A DNA stretch of 64,000 nt from Chitinophagales bacterium (lineage in GTDB: Bacteria > Bacteroidota > Bacteroidia > Chitinophagales > JADIYW01), in contig JAMLHI010000001.1 of assembly GCA_023957235.1 (NCBI GenBank), positions 434,001 to 498,000 of the forward strand. Direction: 5' to 3'. Each line of letters begins with the position of its first letter. Position 1 is the stretch's first letter. Below, in pieces: positions 3,224 to 52,857 of this stretch. The notes beneath the pieces are model-generated. The model saw nothing but the letters and a program-made list of their open reading frames with translations. It searched no databases and was not told the origin of the DNA. The position numbers and the translations under genes were made by a program.

Positions 3224-4708
3224 ATGGGAAATCTATCTTTTAATTCATCCAATCACTTCTTAGGAGAAGGCGTTACTTTTGATGATGTTTTATTAGTGCC
3301 TCAATATTCTGAAGTGCTACCAAGAGAAACCAATACAAGTTCAAATGTGACCAAAAACATTCGTGTTAATATTCCGATATTATCAGCAGCGATGGATACG
3401 GTGACCGAATCTGCAATGGCGATGGCGATGGCTCGTCAAGGAGGAATTGGGGTGTTACATAAAAACATGAGCATTGAGCGTCAGGCAGAAGAAGTGAGAA
3501 AGGTCAAAAGATCTGAGAGCGGATTAATTTTAGACCCTATTACATTAAAAGGTAATCAGACGATAGCTGAGGCTGTCCAATTAATGTCTAATTTTAAAAT
3601 TGGAGGAATTCCTGTAGTGGATGACAATCAAAAATTAGTTGGAATTTTAACAAATAGAGATTTGAGATTCTGCAAAAATCATAGTGGTCTTGTGAAGGAT
3701 TTTATGACTTCTGAACAAATTATCACTGCTCCAGAAGGGACTACACTACAACAAGCAGAATTAATTTTAGATGAGTATAAAATAGAAAAACTACCAGTTG
3801 TTGATGAAAATAATATACTAGTAGGGCTGATTACGTATAAAGATATTTTGAAGGTTAAGAATTATCCCAATTCTTGTAAAGATGAATTTGGAAGGCTGAG
3901 AGTCGCTGCTGCTGTAGGAGTAACTCCTGACATGATTGATAGAATACAGGCGTTAGTAAATGTTGGAGTTGATTTCATTTGTATAGACACCGCACATGGT
4001 CATTCTAAAGGAGTATTAGATGCCGTAAGATTAGCCAAAAAGACTTTTCCTTCTCTTGAAGTTGTAGGAGGCAATATCGCCACTGGTGAAGCGGCATTAG
4101 CTCTGGTTGAAGCGGGAGTGGATGCAGTAAAAGTAGGTGTAGGGCCTGGTTCTATATGTACTACAAGAGTTGTTGCAGGAGTCGGCGTCCCTCAATTGTC
4201 TGCAATTTATGAAGTTGCGCAGGCATTAAATGGGACAGGAATTCCAGTGATAGGAGATGGAGGAATCAAATATACAGGAGATGTGGTAAAAGCATTAGCA
4301 GCAGGCGCATCAGTAGTGATGGCTGGTTCTCTTTTTGCTGGGACAGAAGAGTCTCCAGGAAAAACAATTATTTACGAAGGAAGAAAATATAAACTCTATC
4401 GCGGTATGGGTTCGGTTGAAGCGATGCAAGAAGGCTCAAAAGATAGATATTTTCAAGACGTTGAAGATGATATAAAAAAATTAGTTCCAGAAGGAATTGT
4501 TGGAAGAGTTCCCTATAAAGGATTTTTGTCTGAGGTGGTATATCAATTTGTCGGAGGGCTAAAAGCTGGAATGGGATATTGTGGAGCAAAAGATATTCCT
4601 GCCTTGCAAGAGAATGCTAGGTTTATAAAAATCACTGCTTCTGGAATTAAAGAAAGCCATCCTCATGACGTGACAATCACTCATGAAGCACCCAATTACA
4701 GTAGATAG
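3224..4708 (+). CDS. guaB: Inosine-5'-monophosphate dehydrogenase
   Basis: A 494-residue enzyme oxidising IMP to XMP with NAD, the committed step of GMP synthesis in the cytoplasm. The TIM-barrel start (GVTFDDVLL) is followed by a Bateman module of two CBS domains at about 95-215, then the IMP loop GSICTTR with catalytic Cys312, the GGIKYTGD phosphate-binding stretch and the mobile flap ([10 protein letters not shown]). Length and order are normal for the family. A TTG six bases upstream could extend the frame, but it lies inside the -7 promoter element, so ATG 3224 is chosen. It appears monocistronic. Confidence 0.97.
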
Positions 4709-9428: not shown

Positions 9429-10547
9429 TTAACTTTCTTGTACCCAAGAATATAAATCTATTAAAGCAGAAGTGACTACCTCTGGTTTGAATTTCTGTAT
9501 ATGGTGCTTCCCGTTGATTCTCAATTGATTGGCATACGATGTGTCTAACATTGTTTTATTGATAGCATCTACCCAGCCATCTACATCAGAGGCATCTACA
9601 TAAGTAGCCCCTGCCCCTCCCGCTTCTCTTAAAGAAGAGTTATCTGAGGCTACTGCAGGAATTCCCATTTTTAGACCTTCTATAATTGGCAGTCCAAATC
9701 CCTCATAAAAAGATGGATATACAACACATTTAGCCATTTTATAAATTCCAGGCAATTCATACCAAGGCACATTTTTCAGAAAGAATATTCTGTGGCGTAT
9801 CTCTTTGTTATAAATATAATTTTCCATTTCTTCTAAATTGTCTCCTCCGTTTGTAACAACAACAAGAGGAAATTCACTGTTCTCTGGATACTCTAGGGCA
9901 TCAATAACGACTTTAAGGTTTTTCCGTTGAGAGGTAGAGCCAATAAAAAGAACAAAATGAAAGGGTATCTTATATTTTTGACGTAATAATTCAGTAAACC
10001 AGTTAGTGTATTCGTATTCAAATTCGCGACCCCAGCTTGGAGGAATGACAAAAATCATATTTTCTGGAACCTTAAAATCTTCAATCAAATCTTTTCTAGT
10101 ATTAGAACTGACAGCGACAATTGCCCTTGCCTGTTCACAAGATTTTTTGACTTTATATCGATACAGCTTTCGATCTAATAATGGAAAATAATCAGGGAAC
10201 TTATGAAAGATGATATCGTGAATTGTGACAATAGATTTTATATTTTCAGGCATATTGAATGGCAATTCATTACTCAATCCGTGAAAAATGTCTATTCCAT
10301 TGGCTTTAACATCCTGAACAATATCTATGCTTCTCCACAAATCAGGGATATAATGATTGGAGACAATTGTTTTATCAACAAAATTTTGATATTTAAATGG
10401 ACTAGGACGGTAATATTTTTCGTGTACAAACAGTTTATAATCATACTGAGGAAACCATCTCAATAGATTGTGCATTAGACTTCTGCTATAATTCCCTAGT
10501 CCAGTTGTATTATCATAAATACGCTTTGCATCAAATCCAATAACCAT
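9429..10547 (-). CDS. Family 4 glycosyltransferase (GT-B fold)
   Basis: 372 residues. The N-terminal Rossmann domain starts with GFDAKRIYDNTTGLGNYSR, a form common to mannosyl- and rhamnosyl-type GT4 enzymes. The C-terminal domain has the FIGSTSQRKNL phosphate-binding loop near 200 and the donor-binding E-x7-E motif in YEGFGLPIIEGL near 285. It should transfer a sugar from a nucleotide donor to a cytoplasmic lipid-linked or glycan acceptor. No other glycan genes are adjacent, so the product cannot be named. Confidence 0.88.
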   Translation of the reverse strand: MVIGFDAKRIYDNTTGLGNYSRSLMHNLLRWFPQYDYKLFVHEKYYRPSPFKYQNFVDKTIVSNHYIPDLWRSIDIVQDVKANGIDIFHGLSNELPFNMPENIKSIVTIHDIIFHKFPDYFPLLDRKLYRYKVKKSCEQARAIVAVSSNTRKDLIEDFKVPENMIFVIPPSWGREFEYEYTNWFTELLRQKYKIPFHFVLFIGSTSQRKNLKVVIDALEYPENSEFPLVVVTNGGDNLEEMENYIYNKEIRHRIFFLKNVPWYELPGIYKMAKCVVYPSFYEGFGLPIIEGLKMGIPAVASDNSSLREAGGAGATYVDASDVDGWVDAINKTMLDTSYANQLRINGKHHIQKFKPEVVTSALIDLYSWVQES

Positions 10548-34610: not shown

Positions 34611-34715
34611 AGCTATTACCAATTAAAATAAAAACTCATTTCATCTTGAATATAAATAAAATAAGGAGAAAGCACCTTACTTTCTCCTTTTAAGATATGA
34701 TTGAGAGTTAAAAAA

Positions 34716-35681
34716 TTATTTTTTCCTTTCGATAGCTTTATAAGCTGCTGCCACGATATTTTGAGGGGATAAACCATATTTCTCCAATAGCTGGTCAGGT
34801 GTTCCTGATTCACCGAAAGTATCATTTACAGCAACAAATTCTTGAGGGACAGGAATGTTGCTGACTAATACTCTGGCAACACTTTCTCCTAAACCTCCAT
34901 TGTACTGGTGCTCTTCTGCTGTCACGATACAACCTGTTTTGGCTACAGATTTTAATATAGCATCTATGTCCAAAGGTTTGATAGTATGCATATTGATTAG
35001 TTCAACAGAAACTCCATTTGCTTCTAATTGTTTTCCTGCTTCTACTGCTTGCCAAACCATGTGCCCACAAGCGATAATGGTAACATCTGTTCCTTCTGAA
35101 AGAAATTGCGCTTTGCCAATCTGAAATGTTGAATCTTCTGATGGAGTAAAAATAGGCCATACAGGACGACCAAATCTGAGGTAACATGGACCATGCCATT
35201 CTACAACTGCTTTTGTAGCTAATCTAGTCTGATTATAATCCGCAGGAACGACTACTGTCATACCCGGAAGCATTTTCATCATACCGATATCTTCCAAAAC
35301 CTGATGAGTAGCACCATCTTCTCCCAATGTCAAACCTGCGTGCGAACAAGCGATTTTTACATTTTTATCAGAGTAAGCCACTGACTGACGGATTTGGTCA
35401 TACACACGACTTGTACCAAAATTGGCAAAAGTAGTAGGTACTGCAATTTTTCCAGCAATAGCAAGACCTGCTGACACGCCGATCATATTTGCTTCTGCGA
35501 TACCTGCTTGAATAAATCTATCAGGAAATGCTTCAATAAATTTCTCTAATTTCAAAGATCCAATTAAGTCCGCGCAAAGCGTTACAACATTTGGATTAGC
35601 TAAACCAGCTTCATAGATACCTTGACCAAAGCCGGAACGAGTATCTTTTTTATCTGTATAAGTGATATTTTTTAATGACAT
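34716..35681 (-). CDS. Transketolase, C-terminal (pyrimidine-binding) subunit
   Basis: 321 residues forming the pyrimidine-binding and C-terminal domains of a split transketolase. The key Glu that activates thiamine diphosphate is in GIAEANMIGVSAG near 78-90; FANFGTSRVYDQIRQSVAYS and ACSHAGLTLGEDGATHQ follow, and the C-terminal domain has TAEEHQYNGGLGESVA and FGESGTPDQLLEKYGL. It works with the N-terminal subunit encoded at 37074-37916 in the pentose phosphate pathway. In related bacteria the halves are usually neighbours; here 1392 bp with two foreign-looking genes separate them. It has its own promoter at 35708-35715. Confidence 0.94.
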   Translation of the reverse strand: MSLKNITYTDKKDTRSGFGQGIYEAGLANPNVVTLCADLIGSLKLEKFIEAFPDRFIQAGIAEANMIGVSAGLAIAGKIAVPTTFANFGTSRVYDQIRQSVAYSDKNVKIACSHAGLTLGEDGATHQVLEDIGMMKMLPGMTVVVPADYNQTRLATKAVVEWHGPCYLRFGRPVWPIFTPSEDSTFQIGKAQFLSEGTDVTIIACGHMVWQAVEAGKQLEANGVSVELINMHTIKPLDIDAILKSVAKTGCIVTAEEHQYNGGLGESVARVLVSNIPVPQEFVAVNDTFGESGTPDQLLEKYGLSPQNIVAAAYKAIERKK

Positions 35682-35707: not shown

Positions 35708-35715
35708 CAAATTTA
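35708..35715 (-). promoter_or_regulatory. -7 promoter element TAaaTTTG for the transketolase C-subunit
   Basis: Exact TAnnTTTG on the minus strand, 26 nt before ATG 35681, in the 98-bp gap after the acid-tailed gene. It would keep the subunit expressed independently of the module upstream. Confidence 0.55.
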
Positions 35716-35779: not shown

Positions 35780-36589
35780 TTATCCTCTGCCCATATTGTC
35801 TAACATATCTGAAATATCACCACCATAATCATCATACCTTCCATAATTGCCATCATCTAGTGCATCGAAAGTATCATTTGAATAATTTGAAGATTCATAT
35901 TCTTCAAACCATTCTTCTCTACGATCACTTTCATCATCTCTATCTTTGTATATTTCATAAAAGGCTTTAATGCTTTTATAATTATCTGGATGAAATACAG
36001 AAAAAGAAGGTTTTGTATAATTAAAATTTAATACACATATTCTGTTTTCAAGATATTGAAAATATTCTGAATAATCTGTTTCATTAATGTTATCAAAATC
36101 TTTGATTCCTTCAATTAATAAATTAAAATTAACAAGTTTTCCAAGCTTAAAATCTGCTTTGTATAATAATTCAAAAGATTCATTTATTTTCTCTAACAAG
36201 AGAAAAGATAATGATAGTTTTTTAAAAGGAAAAAGCTGATTTTCGTTTAAATAAAATAGTTTTTCTGTTATATCTTCAACGGAGAATTTTTGATTAACAA
36301 AACAAATGTTTTTTAATATTTGTACGTTTTTTATATATATATTCAATTCTCTATCAATATAATAGCTTATTTTATGAGATTTTTTAATCGAATGTATATA
36401 TTTGAATGGATCGTTTATATTTACTGAATATATACATTCTCCATGATCATTGTCCTTTTTGTAGAATAGTTTAAAAATATCAAAATTTTCAGAGTTTTTT
36501 ATTTCATATCTCTTTTCTAAAAAATATAATTCATCAACAAAGTATGAATTAAGCACATTTAATTCGAATTCATATTGTAAAGCTTCCAT
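35780..36589 (-). CDS. Unrecognised protein with acidic C-terminal tail
   Basis: 269 residues, no signal peptide or membrane helix, and no family I recognise. Residues 1-210 look like a folded alpha/beta domain rich in Tyr, Phe, Asn, Lys and Ile. Residues about 216-269 form a hydrophilic tail loaded with Asp and Glu (KDRDDESDRREEWFEEYESS, then ALDDGNYGRYDDYGGD) that ends DMLDNMGRG. Such tails can mimic nucleic acid or serve as a handle for a partner. It starts 9 nt after the nuclease-like gene, so the two are an operon. Local GC is far lower than in the flanking transketolase genes (34 of 180 bases in 36241-36420), which suggests recent transfer. Confidence 0.6.
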   Translation of the reverse strand: MEALQYEFELNVLNSYFVDELYFLEKRYEIKNSENFDIFKLFYKKDNDHGECIYSVNINDPFKYIHSIKKSHKISYYIDRELNIYIKNVQILKNICFVNQKFSVEDITEKLFYLNENQLFPFKKLSLSFLLLEKINESFELLYKADFKLGKLVNFNLLIEGIKDFDNINETDYSEYFQYLENRICVLNFNYTKPSFSVFHPDNYKSIKAFYEIYKDRDDESDRREEWFEEYESSNYSNDTFDALDDGNYGRYDDYGGDISDMLDNMGRG

Positions 36590-36598
36590 CTTTAAATT

Positions 36599-37066
36599 CT
36601 ATTTAAAAGGATAAAATTCAACATTGATATATTTACCAACTTCGATAAATATACCATATTTATAATTTAATTGATTTACATATGCTTCGATTTTATCGAA
36701 GTCTATAAATTTTTTTCTGTTTTTCCAATTCATTTTAACTTCTATAACCGCAATATTTATTTCTGTATTTCTTTTATGTATTATTATATCAGGGTAAACA
36801 AATGAAGGCCCCTCTTCACTATTAGCATAATCAATAATTTTGGCAACAGCATCTCCAACATCATTTCCATTACTCATTCGATTATATTCAACATCTACAT
36901 CATAATCATATTTCTCTTTTAAATATGATTCAATATACATTGCCAATTTGTGAGTAACTGTTCTTTCGTGAATATTATATTTTTGATCCAAGAAGAGAAT
37001 ATCATTTTCTTGTAGTTTTTTTAAACTATTAATTATGATATTCTCTAATTCTTTTTTACTAATCAT
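36599..37066 (-). CDS. PD-(D/E)XK nuclease-like protein
   Basis: 155 residues. The layout fits the restriction-endonuclease-like fold: an N-terminal helix with E34 (HERTVTHKLAMYIESYL, 33-49), then DVDVEYNR (56-63), then Y-P92-D93 opening a strand (PDIIIHKRN), and E109-V-K111 in the next strand (IAVIEVKMNW). E34, D93, E109 and K111 are the expected metal-binding and catalytic set. I have seen this ER-x(4)-LA ... EYNR ... PDIIxHxR ... VIEVK pattern in a widespread, uncharacterised bacterial family. It starts 7 nt after the transketolase N-subunit stop and is followed 9 nt later by the acid-tailed gene. AT-richer than its neighbours. Confidence 0.65.
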   Translation of the reverse strand: MISKKELENIIINSLKKLQENDILFLDQKYNIHERTVTHKLAMYIESYLKEKYDYDVDVEYNRMSNGNDVGDAVAKIIDYANSEEGPSFVYPDIIIHKRNTEINIAVIEVKMNWKNRKKFIDFDKIEAYVNQLNYKYGIFIEVGKYINVEFYPFK

Positions 37067-37073
37067 AATATAA

Positions 37074-37916
37074 TTAGAAGTCGCCCAAAGTTTCTTCCAA
37101 TTGAGCCATTGCTTTTTCTACTTGTTCAGCATTAGGTGCACTACCGTGCCATTTGTGCGTTCCCATCATATAATCTACACCGGCACCCATTTCAGTAGTC
37201 ATCAAAATGGCGATAGGTTTACCTTTTTTAGCTTTGAGTTGTGCTTCAGAAAGAGTAAAGACTACATCTTCCATTCTATTACCATTCATTTCTAAAACCT
37301 CCCAACCGAAAGATTTGAATTTTCCTTTCAAGTCTCCCAATGAAAGGATCTGATCTACCGTACCATCGATTTGGCAATTGTTGTAGTCAACAGTCAAGAT
37401 CAAATTGTCCACTTTATTATGTGCAGCAAACATCACGGCTTCCCAGATTTGACCTTCTTGCAATTCACCGTCACCAGTCAAAACAAAAACAAATCTGTCA
37501 TCGCCATCCATTTTTTTAGCCAATGCTACACCTGTAGCTACAGATACACCTTGACCCAAAGAACCTGATGCAATTCTTACTCCAGGAAGTCCTTCATGTG
37601 TAGTCGGGTGACCTTGTAATCTACTGTTCAAAAATCTGAACGTGGACAATTCTTTCACGTCGAAATATCCGCTTCTCGCAAGCACACTATAAAATACAGG
37701 AGAGATATGTCCATTGGATAAGAAGAATACATCCTCTCCTCTACCTTCCATGTTAAAAGAGATGTCGTGTTTCATGACATCAAAATACAAAGCCACTAAA
37801 AAATCAGTACATCCCAAAGAGCCTCCAGGGTGTCCACTCTTCACTTTTCCTACCATACGCACAATATCCCTCCTCACTTGAGATGCAATGCGTTCTAATT
37901 CTTGTATTTCTGCCAT
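37074..37916 (-). CDS. Transketolase, N-terminal (ThDP pyrophosphate-binding) subunit
   Basis: 280 residues. It holds the thiamine diphosphate and metal motif GDGELQEGQIWEAVMFAA followed by DYNNCQIDG (about 147-188), the GHPGGSLGCTDF block near 29-40, LSNGHISPVFYS near 67-78 and the HKWHG(S)AP stretch near 257. It pairs with the C-terminal subunit at 34716-35681. The start ATG 37916 follows a -7 element. GC is high for the region (77 of 180 bases in 37441-37620), as expected of a highly expressed housekeeping gene. Two unrelated genes follow at 7 nt. Confidence 0.94.
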   Translation of the reverse strand: MAEIQELERIASQVRRDIVRMVGKVKSGHPGGSLGCTDFLVALYFDVMKHDISFNMEGRGEDVFFLSNGHISPVFYSVLARSGYFDVKELSTFRFLNSRLQGHPTTHEGLPGVRIASGSLGQGVSVATGVALAKKMDGDDRFVFVLTGDGELQEGQIWEAVMFAAHNKVDNLILTVDYNNCQIDGTVDQILSLGDLKGKFKSFGWEVLEMNGNRMEDVVFTLSEAQLKAKKGKPIAILMTTEMGAGVDYMMGTHKWHGSAPNAEQVEKAMAQLEETLGDF

Positions 37917-37941: not shown

Positions 37942-37949
37942 CAAAATTA
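37942..37949 (-). promoter_or_regulatory. -7 promoter element TAatTTTG for the transketolase N-subunit
   Basis: Exact TAnnTTTG on the minus strand, 25 nt before ATG 37916. The transcript probably includes the two inserted genes. Confidence 0.55.
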
Positions 37950-41841: not shown

Positions 41842-42789
41842 TTAGATATAACTTAAAACTTCTAATTTTTGCCCTTTAAGTTGCATCCTAGTCTTATTGA
41901 TATTTTTGGTGAATCCTAAAATAAATCCACCTCCTCCTGCTCCACAGAGCTTGAAATAATAGTCGCCACTTTCCAATCCTCTCTTCCAATGCTTATTAAA
42001 AAAATGAGGAATCATTGGTTTGAAATGCTGAAATTGGAAATGTGAAAGTTTTTTCATGTAGCCAAATAGTGTTTCAGTATCTCCTTCTAAAAAAGCCTGA
42101 ATACAATTATTGGCAAAAGGTTTTAACTGTTTGTCCACAAACTCACGATAAGAAGGCTTCTCCATTTGTTCCATATAATATTTCACTAATGGTTCTGTCT
42201 TTCTGCTTATCCCCGTGTCAATTAAAAAGATAGCACCTTCTCCATCTTTTTTCATTGCGACCTTGACTGGTTCTATTTCTTGATTTTCCTTAATTAATAG
42301 AGGAAGGTTCAAATAGCAAATCAACGGATCTACTCCTGAACTCTTTCCATGAAAATAAGACTCCATTACACCCAATACACGCTTCAATTCTGCGATAGAT
42401 TCTTTTGTGGGTGTTTCATCCAAAGTGATTTTATCTTTTACATATCTTTCATATACAGCAGCGACTAAAGCTCCTGAACTTCCAATTCCAAATCCTTGAG
42501 GAATGGTAGAATGAAAGAAAATACCACCAGCAATATCATTATGAAAAGCAACAGTATCAAAATCAAAAGTTAGATTTCCAAGTTTGACTTGTTCTTGAAT
42601 ATAATTGCCTAGGTTCTTCAGATGTTCATTGGATTGAGTTTTGAACTCTTCTGAGACAGAAGTGTCTGAAAAAGTCAAAAAGCCTTTAAAGATTTCATAA
42701 GGAACAGTCAATCCCATACTGTCTTGGATAATGCTATACTCTCCAAAAAGGAGTATTTTAGAATGGAATGTGACGTCTTTTTTTGACAT
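41842..42789 (-). CDS. Mevalonate kinase-like GHMP kinase
   Basis: 315 residues. GHMP kinase motifs: KILLFGEYSIIQD (11-23, motif 1), GIGSSGALVAAV near 113 (the glycine-rich ATP loop, motif 2) and KLCGAGGGGFILGF near 281 (motif 3). The start 1 nt after the stop of the diphosphomevalonate decarboxylase gene makes mevalonate kinase the obvious assignment, in the pathway from mevalonate to isopentenyl diphosphate. Phosphomevalonate kinase, a similar fold, is the main alternative. The other pathway genes are not in this window. Confidence 0.83.
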   Translation of the reverse strand: MSKKDVTFHSKILLFGEYSIIQDSMGLTVPYEIFKGFLTFSDTSVSEEFKTQSNEHLKNLGNYIQEQVKLGNLTFDFDTVAFHNDIAGGIFFHSTIPQGFGIGSSGALVAAVYERYVKDKITLDETPTKESIAELKRVLGVMESYFHGKSSGVDPLICYLNLPLLIKENQEIEPVKVAMKKDGEGAIFLIDTGISRKTEPLVKYYMEQMEKPSYREFVDKQLKPFANNCIQAFLEGDTETLFGYMKKLSHFQFQHFKPMIPHFFNKHWKRGLESGDYYFKLCGAGGGGFILGFTKNINKTRMQLKGQKLEVLSYI

Positions 42790-42790
42790 T

Positions 42791-43861
42791 TTAATCTATT
42801 TTTTCAGGTCCTTTTCCTACCTGATCGTGTATGACACGATGATTCTCACACAAAGGTACTAACTCTTCGTCGATAAATGATATTATTTCTTTCTTAATAT
42901 TATCTGGATAAAGAAGGTGGATATTGGGACCAGCATCTAAAGTAAAAAATACAGGTAGTTGATTTTCTTTTCTAAATTGTTGTATTCTTTCTATGGCAAT
43001 CAATGTATTGGGATGCATTAATATGTAAGGAGGCTCGGATGCCATCATTAATGCATGAAGAGTCAGAGCTTCTTTCTCTACTATCTTTCCCCAATCATCA
43101 AGATTGCCATTCTTCATGGCATTGATTAGCAATTCAATATGGCTATTGGCTTGTTGGTATCTTGATTTTGCATAAGGATTTCCTTCCATCAACGCATGAC
43201 CAGCTCTGCTAGACACAGATTTTTCTGATGAACTGATGATTAATATGCTATCTCTGAAAGATTGGAATATAGGGTGAATATTTTCTGAGATAGGTATTGC
43301 AAAATCATTAGATGAATTTTGTACTGCGTCCAATTTCCCCCATAATGCTAAATGTGGGAAAACCGAACGGCAGGCACTTCCTGAGCCTAACCTAGCTATG
43401 ATAGAAGATTTTTCCAAAAACTGCTTTTCATCCTTCAGGTTTCCCGTTATTCTTTTTTCAATTTCACAAAGACATAAAGCTAAAGCACTCATAGACGATG
43501 CCGAAGAAGCAATTCCGGTAGAGTGGGGAAAGGAATTTTTACTTTCAATATCCAAATGAAAATCTTTCAAATATGGAAAATAGTCAATGATAGAGACTAA
43601 AAATTGATGAATTTTCTCTTCAAACTTTTTATTATTTACACCTTCAAATAAAAAACGTATTGAAACACCTTCAGTTTTTTCTGACTTCAAGGCATATTTG
43701 ACTGTTGTTTCAGTAAATGCATTTTGTAAAGTAAAGCTGATAGAAGTATTTTTAGGATATTGTCTTCCATATTTTCCCCAATATTTCACCAAAGCAATAT
43801 TTGAAGGGGATTTCCAAGTCACCTTGCCGATACTTTTTTTATCAGAACCTTGCATATTCAT
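42791..43861 (-). CDS. mvaD: Diphosphomevalonate decarboxylase
   Basis: 356 residues from ATG 43861. It has WKSPSNIALVKYWGKYG near 15-31, HSTGIASSASSMSALA near 111-126 (ATP loop) and GSGSACRSVFPHLALW near 158-173, the signature set of the decarboxylase that makes isopentenyl diphosphate with ATP. A longer frame starts at TTG 43876 but this lies within the -7 element, so it is rejected; ATG 43855 is also possible. First gene of an operon with the mevalonate kinase 1 nt downstream. Confidence 0.92.
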   Translation of the reverse strand: MNMQGSDKKSIGKVTWKSPSNIALVKYWGKYGRQYPKNTSISFTLQNAFTETTVKYALKSEKTEGVSIRFLFEGVNNKKFEEKIHQFLVSIIDYFPYLKDFHLDIESKNSFPHSTGIASSASSMSALALCLCEIEKRITGNLKDEKQFLEKSSIIARLGSGSACRSVFPHLALWGKLDAVQNSSNDFAIPISENIHPIFQSFRDSILIISSSEKSVSSRAGHALMEGNPYAKSRYQQANSHIELLINAMKNGNLDDWGKIVEKEALTLHALMMASEPPYILMHPNTLIAIERIQQFRKENQLPVFFTLDAGPNIHLLYPDNIKKEIISFIDEELVPLCENHRVIHDQVGKGPEKID

Positions 43862-43873
43862 GATTAAGAATTG

Positions 43874-43881
43874 CAAATGTA
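43874..43881 (-). promoter_or_regulatory. -7 promoter element TAcaTTTG for mvaD-mvk
   Basis: Exact TAnnTTTG on the minus strand, 12 nt before ATG 43861. It covers the TTG of the longer open frame. Confidence 0.65.
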
Positions 43882-50086: not shown

Positions 50087-51396
50087 TGATGAAAGATGCT
50101 TTTGAAGTTATAGGAGGCAGGAAACTAAAAGGAGAAATCTTTCCCCAAGGAGCCAAAAACGAAGCCTTACAGGTTATTTCAGCAGTGCTATTAACAGATG
50201 AAGATGTTGTCATCAAAAACATTCCTGATATTAGAGATGTCAATTTCCTAATAGAGTTACTCCTCAATTTAGGGGTTAGAGTGACTAAAAACAAACCTGA
50301 CACTTATACTTTCAATGCTGCATCTATAGATCCTGATATTATTCTCTCAGAAGAGTTTAAAAGGAAAGCAGCCCATCTCAGAGGTTCAATAATGATATTA
50401 GGACCTTTATTAACTCGTTTTGGGAAAGCTCACATGCCAATGCCTGGAGGAGATAAAATTGGAAGGAGGAGATTAGATACACATTTCCAGGGGTTTATTG
50501 AATTAGGAGCTACTTTCAAATATGACAGTATCAATAATTTTTACTCTCTTTATGCGGAACATCTTCATGGCAAATTTATTCATCTAGATGAACCATCAGT
50601 CACTGGAACAGCCAATATTATTATGGCAGCAGTGATGGCAGAAGGGCACACGACATTATATAATGCCGCATGTGAACCCTATATTCAGCAATTGTGCTTG
50701 ATGCTGTGTAGAATGGGAGCAAAAATCACAGGGATAGCTTCCAATAAACTCGAAATTGAAGGCGTTAAAAAGTTAAAAGGTACTGAGCATTCATTGCTCC
50801 CAGATATGATTGAGATTGGTTCTTTTATTGGTTTAGCAGCCATGACTCAATCGGAAATTACGATTAAAAATTGTAGAATAGATATGTTGGGATTGATTCC
50901 CAATGCTTTTAAAAAGTTAGGAATTCAACTTGAATATAGGGGAGATGACATTTTTATCCCTGAACAAGAACATTATGAGATTGATTCTTTTATCGATGGT
51001 TCTATCCTTACTATTTATGATGCACCATGGCCTGGATTGACACCAGATATCTTATCCGTATTATTAGTGACAGCATGTCAGGCTAAAGGAAGTGTCTTAA
51101 TTCATCAAAAGATGTTTGAGAGTAGATTGTTTTTTGTTGACAAATTGATAGATATGGGCGCCAAAATAATTTTGTGTGATCCTCATAGAGCTACAGTCAT
51201 TGGGATTGACAGGAGCTATCCTCTTAGAGGGATTAACATGACCTCTCCAGATATCAGAGCAGGGGTGTCTTTGCTAATTGCTGCATTGTCAGCAGAAGGG
51301 AAAAGTACGATTTTCAACGCCCATCAGATAGACAGAGGCTACCAGAAAATAGATGATAGATTGATAGCTTTAGGAGCAGAAATTAAACGATTTTAA
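50086..51396 (+). CDS. murA: UDP-N-acetylglucosamine 1-carboxyvinyltransferase, Asp-type active site
   Basis: 436 residues. The first committed step of peptidoglycan synthesis, joining phosphoenolpyruvate to UDP-GlcNAc. The inside-out alpha/beta barrel starts with GGRKLKGEI and the K24-N25 pair in PQGAKNEAL. The mobile loop reads MPMPGGD123KIGRRRLDTHF, so Asp stands where most bacteria have the Cys that fosfomycin alkylates. Asp at this position preserves activity and gives intrinsic fosfomycin resistance in mycobacteria and chlamydiae. Other blocks (GTANIIMAAVMAEG, SPDIRAGVSLLIAAL) are normal. ATG 50086 or the next ATG, 50089, may start translation. Confidence 0.95.
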   Translation: MMKDAFEVIGGRKLKGEIFPQGAKNEALQVISAVLLTDEDVVIKNIPDIRDVNFLIELLLNLGVRVTKNKPDTYTFNAASIDPDIILSEEFKRKAAHLRGSIMILGPLLTRFGKAHMPMPGGDKIGRRRLDTHFQGFIELGATFKYDSINNFYSLYAEHLHGKFIHLDEPSVTGTANIIMAAVMAEGHTTLYNAACEPYIQQLCLMLCRMGAKITGIASNKLEIEGVKKLKGTEHSLLPDMIEIGSFIGLAAMTQSEITIKNCRIDMLGLIPNAFKKLGIQLEYRGDDIFIPEQEHYEIDSFIDGSILTIYDAPWPGLTPDILSVLLVTACQAKGSVLIHQKMFESRLFFVDKLIDMGAKIILCDPHRATVIGIDRSYPLRGINMTSPDIRAGVSLLIAALSAEGKSTIFNAHQIDRGYQKIDDRLIALGAEIKRF

Positions 51397-51417
51397 TTGG
51401 CCTCTTAATCATATATA

Positions 51418-52254
51418 ATGAAAGAAAAATTTAGCGGGACAGATCAATATATAGCATCTGATGACTTGAGGATAGCGGTCAATGCAGCAGTGACTTTGCA
51501 GAAACCTCTGCTTATTAAAGGAGAACCAGGCACTGGAAAAACTTTGCTGGCTTTTGAAATCTCCAAAGCCTTAAATCTTCCAATGTTTTCATGGAATATC
51601 AAAAGTACGACAATAGCTCAACAAGGACTTTATGAATACGATGCCGTAGCTCGACTAAGGGATTCCCAATTGGGGGATGAAAAAGTAAATGATATTAAGA
51701 ATTATATAGTCAAAGGTCCTATTTGGAACGCTTTTGAAGCAGAATCACAAGTAGTGTTGTTAATAGATGAAATCGATAAAGCTGACATTGAATTTCCTAA
51801 TGACCTTCTTTTAGAATTGGATAAAATGGAATTTTACTGCTATGAACTCCATCAAACTGTCAAAGCCAAGTTTCGACCTATAATTATCATTACTTCTAAT
51901 AATGAAAAAGAACTTCCAGATGCATTCTTAAGAAGATGCTTTTTTCATTATATCCGTTTCCCAGATAAGGAGACTATGCAACAAATTGTAGATGTTCATT
52001 TTCCTAATATTCAACAAGAACTTGTTAGTGATGCCATGAAAGCATTTTATCAAATACGGGACATTCAAGGGGTTAAAAAGAAACCATCTACTAGTGAATT
52101 GATTGATTGGATTCGTTTATTGAAATTAGGGGATAAGACTATTACCGAGCATACACCGAAAGAAGAATTACCTTATTTGGGTGCCTTACTTAAAAACGAA
52201 CAAGATATTGAACTCCTTCTGCGAATGGCAAAAATGGGCATGAGAAGATTTTAG
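51418..52254 (+). CDS. MoxR-like AAA+ ATPase
   Basis: 278 residues. Walker A GEPGTGKTLLAFE near 38-50, Walker B VVLLIDEIDKAD near 113-124, sensor 1 IIITSNNEKELPDAFLRRC near 159-177 with the arginine finger. It belongs to the MoxR branch that acts as a chaperone for metal or cofactor insertion, usually with a von Willebrand A partner, which is not visible downstream. It starts 22 nt after murA and probably shares its transcript. A weak hairpin with a T-run (52286-52302) may end it. Confidence 0.87.
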   Translation: MKEKFSGTDQYIASDDLRIAVNAAVTLQKPLLIKGEPGTGKTLLAFEISKALNLPMFSWNIKSTTIAQQGLYEYDAVARLRDSQLGDEKVNDIKNYIVKGPIWNAFEAESQVVLLIDEIDKADIEFPNDLLLELDKMEFYCYELHQTVKAKFRPIIIITSNNEKELPDAFLRRCFFHYIRFPDKETMQQIVDVHFPNIQQELVSDAMKAFYQIRDIQGVKKKPSTSELIDWIRLLKLGDKTITEHTPKEELPYLGALLKNEQDIELLLRMAKMGMRRF

Positions 52255-52314
52255 ACTTCAGTGCCTAAGAAATGTTAATAATCATAAAGCATTGCTTTTT
52301 TTAAAATAAAGTTA

Positions 52315-52322
52315 TACTTTTG
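52315..52322 (+). promoter_or_regulatory. -7 promoter element TActTTTG of greA
   Basis: Exact TAnnTTTG match with a possible -33 TTG at 52292-52294 (20-nt spacer). Transcription should start near 52326-52330, directly before the hairpin at 52331. Confidence 0.6.
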
Positions 52323-52330
52323 TAAATATC

Positions 52331-52365
52331 GGCACGTCCTCACAAAAGGACGTGTCATTTTTTTT
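52331..52365 (+). promoter_or_regulatory. Promoter-proximal terminator hairpin in the greA leader (putative attenuator)
   Basis: GGCACGTCC (52331-52339) pairs with GGACGTGTC (52348-52356) in a 9-bp stem with one G-T pair and an 8-nt loop, then one A and eight T (52358-52365). It has all parts of an intrinsic terminator but lies between the greA promoter and its ATG at 52384. It could release a short RNA or set the level of greA transcription. A terminator left from moxR is the alternative. Confidence 0.6.
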
Positions 52366-52383
52366 ATTTAAACCCGTTAAGGT

Positions 52384-52857
52384 ATGGCAGAGATAGTTTA
52401 TGTAACCCAGGAAGGGATGGACAAGATGAAGGTAGAGTTGAGTATGCTTATCAATGAAGAAAGGCCAAAGGCATCACAAGCAATTGCTGAAGCCAGAGAA
52501 AAGGGAGACCTTTCGGAGAATGCAGAATATGATGCAGCCAAAGAAGCTCAAGGGCTATTGGAATTGCGTATTTCAAAACTACAAGATACGATTGGAAAGG
52601 CAAGAGTCATCGACCCATCTCAATTAGATATTTCAAAAGTATCTGTACTGTCCAAAGTGAAAGTGAGAAATATCAAAATGAAGAAAGATTTTGAATACAC
52701 TTTGGTTTCTGAGAAGGAAGCAGATTTAAAGCAGATGAAAATATCAGTACAATCTCCGATAGGCAAATCACTTTTAGGAAGGGAAAAAGGAGAAAAAGTA
52801 GATGTAAAAACTCCCGGAGGAATTGTTACATTTGAAGTATTGGATATTTCTATTTAA
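52384..52857 (+). CDS. greA: Transcription elongation factor GreA
   Basis: 157 residues. N-terminal coiled coil with the LSENAEYDAAKEAQG tip (about 39-53), whose acidic pair (E45, D47 region) enters the polymerase channel to stimulate cleavage of backtracked RNA; C-terminal FKBP-like domain with SPIGKSLLGREKGEKVDVKTPGG near 121-143. Normal length. The hairpin upstream may control it. The HIT gene follows at 12 nt in the same operon. Confidence 0.97.
   Translation: MAEIVYVTQEGMDKMKVELSMLINEERPKASQAIAEAREKGDLSENAEYDAAKEAQGLLELRISKLQDTIGKARVIDPSQLDISKVSVLSKVKVRNIKMKKDFEYTLVSEKEADLKQMKISVQSPIGKSLLGREKGEKVDVKTPGGIVTFEVLDISI

Follow-up and report, generated by a model that had tools for sequence, protein, structure and literature searches.

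In the 64,000-nucleotide stretch of DNA that was analysed (the window), two small genes, A and B, lie between the genes for the two halves of a split transketolase (tkt). All four are encoded on the minus strand, in the order tktN, 7 nt, A, 9 nt, B, 98 bp, tktC, and the open reading frames of A and B are both complete; the coordinates and narrow spacings given for the two AT-rich genes in a first-pass annotation of the sequence proved exact. The features discussed below are as follows.

37942..37949, minus strand: Bacteroidota -7 element, TAATTTTG, upstream of tktN
37074..37916, minus strand: tktN, N-terminal half of transketolase, 280 aa, the 5' flank of the insertion
36599..37066, minus strand: gene A, PD-(D/E)XK nuclease of the PD-Lambda-3_A family, 155 aa
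36734..36793, minus strand: predicted catalytic signature of A, P92-D93...E109-V-K111, with P92, D93, E109 and K111 invariant in 14 homologues
35780..36589, minus strand: gene B, orphan partner, 269 aa, starting 9 nt after A
35783..35899, minus strand: acidic C-terminal tail of B, residues 231-269, with the core DTFDALDDG
35708..35715, minus strand: -7-like element, TAAATTTG, before tktC
34716..35681, minus strand: tktC, C-terminal half of transketolase, 321 aa, the 3' flank of the insertion
34663..34689, minus strand: terminator-like hairpin directly after tktC

The A-B module (1,287 bp) has a GC content of 23.5%; the window as a whole has 34.0%, and no other non-overlapping stretch of equal length goes below 27.8%. 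Among the 51 genes of the window that encode 120 aa or more, A and B have the lowest GC (24.1 and 23.4%, respectively, vs. a mean of 34.6%, sd 3.1) and the lowest GC3 (16.1 and 14.9% vs. a mean of 28.4%, sd 4.8). Recounting reproduced exactly the hand counts of the first-pass annotation, 34/180 GC at 36241-36420 and 77/180 at 37441-37620; since the tkt genes rank among the GC-richest of the window, this contrast is somewhat flattered, and the window-wide comparison is still valid. The window contains no other defence genes, no integrase or transposase, and no tRNA or known RNA families; mobility genes are absent from the module ends, and no convincing target-site duplication or end repeats surround the module. 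Farther along the window, at 41842-43876, two adjoining genes resemble by eye mevalonate-pathway GHMP enzymes.

Homologues of A and B were absent from the 100 nearest genomes searched, both congeners included. The tkt halves are 34 bp apart in one congener (G001) and ∼167 bp apart in the other (G002), where a single 51-aa open reading frame lies between them; because the congener halves are close together and A and B are missing from congeners and ∼100 relatives alike, the module is interpreted as an insertion. Adjacent or near-adjacent halves were found in seven of 12 family relatives, and in four (G004-G007) the halves lie at a distance from each other or on separate contigs. In the family relative G010, 863 bp separate the halves. 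The insert (L109, 780-1720) carries genes of the DUF4160, DUF2442, and Unstab_antitox families, and a 32-nt stretch of the tktN 3' end recurs in it at 88% identity, as if the cassette had been captured together with its flank. A more distant relative, G039, carries a RelB-like/RelE-like pair, scoring just below the Pfam cut-offs, directly before tktC. Across the order, 40 tandem tkt pairs lie within 6 kb; in 13 of them the halves adjoin (≤250 bp), and in 24 they are separated by 2.8-5 kb. The expectation that the halves are normally neighbours thus applies to the genus and much of the family, but not to the order, for which the stronger form, that they always are, is rejected. All eight of the wide pairs that were opened have a pair of VWA-type proteins (∼450-480 aa) between the halves, an assignment confirmed by Pfam for two of these proteins; the arrangement is conserved in many genomes of the order (L112-L119).

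The comparison of close relatives proposed in the first-pass annotation therefore yielded both empty sites in the congeners and, in G010 and G002, small inserts of another kind at this junction, and the view of the two genes as horizontal cargo is borne out by their extreme composition, the empty congener sites, the lack of homologues in 100 relatives, and the other cargo at the junction. The A-B module is of foreign origin and was inserted at a site where toxin-antitoxin-type genes are found in relatives. The locus shows that small cargo, putatively for defence or addiction, can settle at a junction within a core-metabolism operon, a place left out by searches that look only at defence islands and mobile elements.

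A TAnnTTTG element, as found upstream of tktN, occurs in the same place in both congeners, and no terminator-like site lies between tktN and A, making read-through from the tktN promoter into A plausible. The -7-like element before tktC could allow independent transcription of that gene, as the first-pass annotation supposed; the element is present, but one alone means little, since the window contains 123 TAnnTTTG elements vs. 89 expected. Against an independent tktC promoter, no -33 TTG was seen by eye at the standard spacing of 19-21 nt from this element, and the empty site in G001 has only 34 bp in this place.

Gene A matches the PADLOC model PD-Lambda-3_A over residues 8-145 (E = 6.5e-21; PADLOC models were used here without a curated cut-off). 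Nothing scored above cut-off in Pfam or NCBIfam, and resolvase-like matches were weak (Pfam Hjc, E = 0.017, below cut-off; PHROG, E = 0.066). All 14 sequences in an alignment of A with 13 loci from genome contigs matched PD-Lambda-3_A, and the invariant positions, E34-R35, V57-D58, E60-Y61-N62, V90-Y91-P92-D93-I94-I95, H97, R99, E109, and K111, correspond to a predicted PD...ExK active site and family-specific blocks. The AlphaFold2 model of A (mean pLDDT 85.7) matched Cas4 SSO0001, BstEII, and other restriction-endonuclease-like folds among solved structures (E from 5e-3, the best, to 1e-1; probability up to 0.96), and Cas4-like and restriction-type proteins in a viral structure library; since no fold match had E ≤ 1e-3, the fold assignment rests on many weak matches agreeing with the sequence motif. 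Judged by its predicted catalytic residues and restriction-endonuclease-like predicted fold, A belongs with the PD-(D/E)XK nucleases, so that the nuclease-like motif noted earlier is supported by both the PADLOC match and the structure model.

The neighbourhoods of A-family genes were surveyed at 86 loci selected by similarity to A, not by context. Of the genes packed closely against an A homologue on the same strand, 56 in all, 10 encode type I specificity subunits and several others type I methyltransferases. The A homologue lies beside, and often between, hsdM and hsdS at L022, L024, L027, L034, L036, L068, L102, L106, and L107; the frames mostly overlap, and do so on both sides of the A homologue at L027, L034, L036, L102, and L107. 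Elsewhere, A homologues adjoin a patatin-like protein and two LmuA-type Lamassu effectors (L028, 4064-8039), another LmuA-type effector (L029, 3612-5498), or a caspase-domain gene (L032), or lie between a gene resembling, by eye, a DNA methyltransferase and one for a DUF4365-type protein (L035). Four Flavobacteriia loci (L029, L030, L032, and L033) have A homologues at one position beside conjugation genes recognised by eye. On the Klebsiella plasmid NZ_CP143509.1 (L021/L125, ∼50783-52579), PD-Lambda-3_B comes directly after the A homologue but is incomplete, with an IS5 transposase next to it; similar A genes were found on many plasmids of Klebsiella and Raoultella. Some A homologues adjoin genes without a known defence role, e.g., an aminotransferase. 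The association of the A family with defence is thus strong, though not exclusive, and it would seem that very different defence operons draw on one small nuclease as a shared component.

Gene B matched no Pfam, NCBIfam, or PADLOC family above cut-off and no solved structure, and its own structure model (pLDDT 35.7) was unusable. No full-length homologue was found in ∼1,100 sampled Bacteroidota genomes (species representatives in partly overlapping samples of 395 across the phylum, 378 Flavobacteriaceae, and 375 of the class), no relatives were found in phages or plasmids, and peptide-pattern scans of viral and genome contigs recovered no homologues. Co-occurrence of A and B in other genomes, which the first-pass annotation had suggested looking for, was searched for and not found. 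Several candidate identities were rejected: PD-Lambda-3_B agrees in length (269 aa vs. a 270-position model), but there was no PADLOC match and the hhalign probability was 0.1; a Rid/L-PSP protein (E = 0.013-0.12) and a DNA polymerase epsilon-like protein (E = 0.18) were each single weak partial matches, taken as chance; and matches in Flavobacteriaceae (E of 0.001-0.1) were short, many with stops, and likewise taken as chance.

B is acidic (pI 4.65), its C-terminal tail more so (pI 4.05), and in the class sample search residues 213-268 matched the C-terminus of a Pif1-like helicase, so named by eye, in G1130 (E = 8.7e-4; L145, the helicase ending at 9960). DNA patterns built on the core DT(F/W)(D/N)A(M/L)xDG recovered two further tailed proteins in IMG/VR contigs (L144, ∼4420-4532; L166, ∼2340-2450), both WG-repeat-like by eye and with the tail at the very end. 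Pattern matches at L165 and L167 were not C-terminal, lacked acidic context, and were dismissed as chance. The core, DT(W/F)(D/N)A(M/L)xDGxxG, is always found at the extreme C-terminus, on otherwise unrelated proteins, and the tail that B shares with the Pif1-like helicase and WG-repeat proteins of Bacteroidota has the approximate consensus DYxRDT(W/F)DAMTDGxYGDxxxxxDGDxx. A profile built without B retrieved B at E = 1e-6, the next best match being 0.7 (6,888 ORF ends, 3.08 Mb), and one built from just the two WG tails retrieved the helicase at 2e-4 and B at 0.0085, with the next best at 1.3; these scores derive from four examples and are inflated by acidic composition. Because the patterns drew on B and the helicase, and in part on a prior expectation of such tails in proteins of Bacteroidota, the core does not count as independent evidence; independent support comes from two features that lie outside the patterns, namely the position at the terminus and the distance to the stop. 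Searching plasmids and phages with the tail alone by tblastn gave no match, the low-complexity filter probably masking the tail, and the tested tail strings were not found printed in the searched literature. Its occurrence on unrelated proteins makes it likely that the tail serves for docking to, or recognition by, a host factor. The fuller proposal, that B is the second gene of a new PD-Lambda-3_A-nuclease defence pairing whose C-terminal ∼35-40 residues are a portable tag for one shared host factor, is put forward tentatively. The recurrent tail provides a direct handle on unannotated Bacteroidota proteins.

Taken together, A and B are given a somewhat better than even chance of being a horizontally acquired two-gene anti-phage (or anti-mobile-DNA) module inside the tkt operon. 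In such a module, A would be the effector that cuts DNA during infection, B would be its cognate partner, restraining A or directing it to its target, and both would be transcribed by read-through from the tktN promoter. This reading draws on the neighbourhoods of the A family, the PD-Lambda-3_A match and invariant PD...ExK, the restriction-endonuclease-like structure model, the foreign composition and empty sites, the tight same-strand packing with no terminator-like site after tktN, the presence of PD-Lambda-3_B after A in the Klebsiella plasmid in the order seen for A-B, and the toxin-antitoxin-type genes at the G010 junction and before tktC in G039. Against it, the partnership of A and B is drawn from adjacency in one genome and B has no homologue; the window has neither further defence genes nor an integrase or transposase; A homologues also occur beside non-defence genes; and the fold matches of A are individually weak, while its PADLOC match comes from a model used with no curated cut-off. 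Of the earlier suggestion of a candidate undescribed defence pair, the defence assignment is supported for A by its family neighbourhoods, and the pair is indeed undescribed, but B is an orphan and the family of A has been described. On the defence reading, the orphan B is linked to a family of nucleases found repeatedly as an extra gene in type I restriction, Lamassu, and PD-Lambda-3.

Four other explanations were weighed. A plain addiction module, in which the toxin would be A, acting as a DNase, and the antitoxin B, its acidic C-terminus filling the DNA-binding cleft of A, with the pair kept by addiction and not by defence, is considered rather unlikely: the two small tandem genes, the acidity of B and its tail, and the DUF4160/DUF2442, Unstab_antitox, and RelBE-like genes at the same junction in relatives agree with it, whereas B has no recognisable antitoxin or DNA-binding domain and relatives of A occur without a B-like partner, e.g., inside type I restriction operons. 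Comparably doubtful is a reading in which A works on its own as an accessory nuclease that has entered many defence operons, and B is unconnected with it beyond having come in on one piece of DNA; the widely differing neighbours of A homologues and the lack of a B-A link in the other genomes searched point this way, but the 9-nt spacing, shared strand, and two lowest GC values of the window suggest joint arrival and one transcript. That the insertion is neutral or decaying, without present function, is improbable; it was seen in one genome only and has no mobility genes, yet both frames and the catalytic residues are intact and the packing is compact. Least probable of all is a DNA repair or recombination pair resembling a Holliday-junction resolvase, which the weak resolvase-like matches of A bring to mind; the Pfam Hjc match falls below its cut-off, and the sporadic distribution, foreign composition, and defence-type neighbourhoods of the A family argue against it.

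Among known systems, A-B can be compared with PD-Lambda-3, described by Vassallo et al. (2022; PMC9519451) and classed as abortive infection in PMC13190303. The nuclease gene, A, is of the PD-Lambda-3_A family and comes first, with a ∼270-aa gene second on the same strand (9-nt gap here), the order also seen on the Klebsiella plasmid (L125). In contrast, B is not PD-Lambda-3_B (Hypoth_Ymh, PF09509), so the A-B pair is not PD-Lambda-3; the PD-Lambda-3_B model is absent from the bacterium's own genome, and A-B lies in a chromosomal housekeeping operon rather than on a plasmid or prophage. Considering the family context, A-B may well work as a nuclease-plus-partner defence like PD-Lambda-3. Type I restriction operons share the A homologue as an extra small gene between hsdM and hsdS (L022, L027, L034, L107, and others), whereas no hsdR, hsdM, or hsdS genes were seen in the window, where the open reading frames are, by eye, of housekeeping type. 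Similarly, A homologues adjoin LmuA-type effectors of Lamassu (L028 and L029), but no Lmu genes are found at the A-B locus. The DUF4160/DUF2442 and RelBE-type modules resemble A-B as small cargo at the tkt junction (G010) or before tktC (G039), but are unrelated in sequence to A and B, and unlike type II toxin-antitoxin systems, B has no antitoxin domain recognisable by Pfam, NCBIfam, or PADLOC. The pairing of A with B is new, whereas the family of A was already known.
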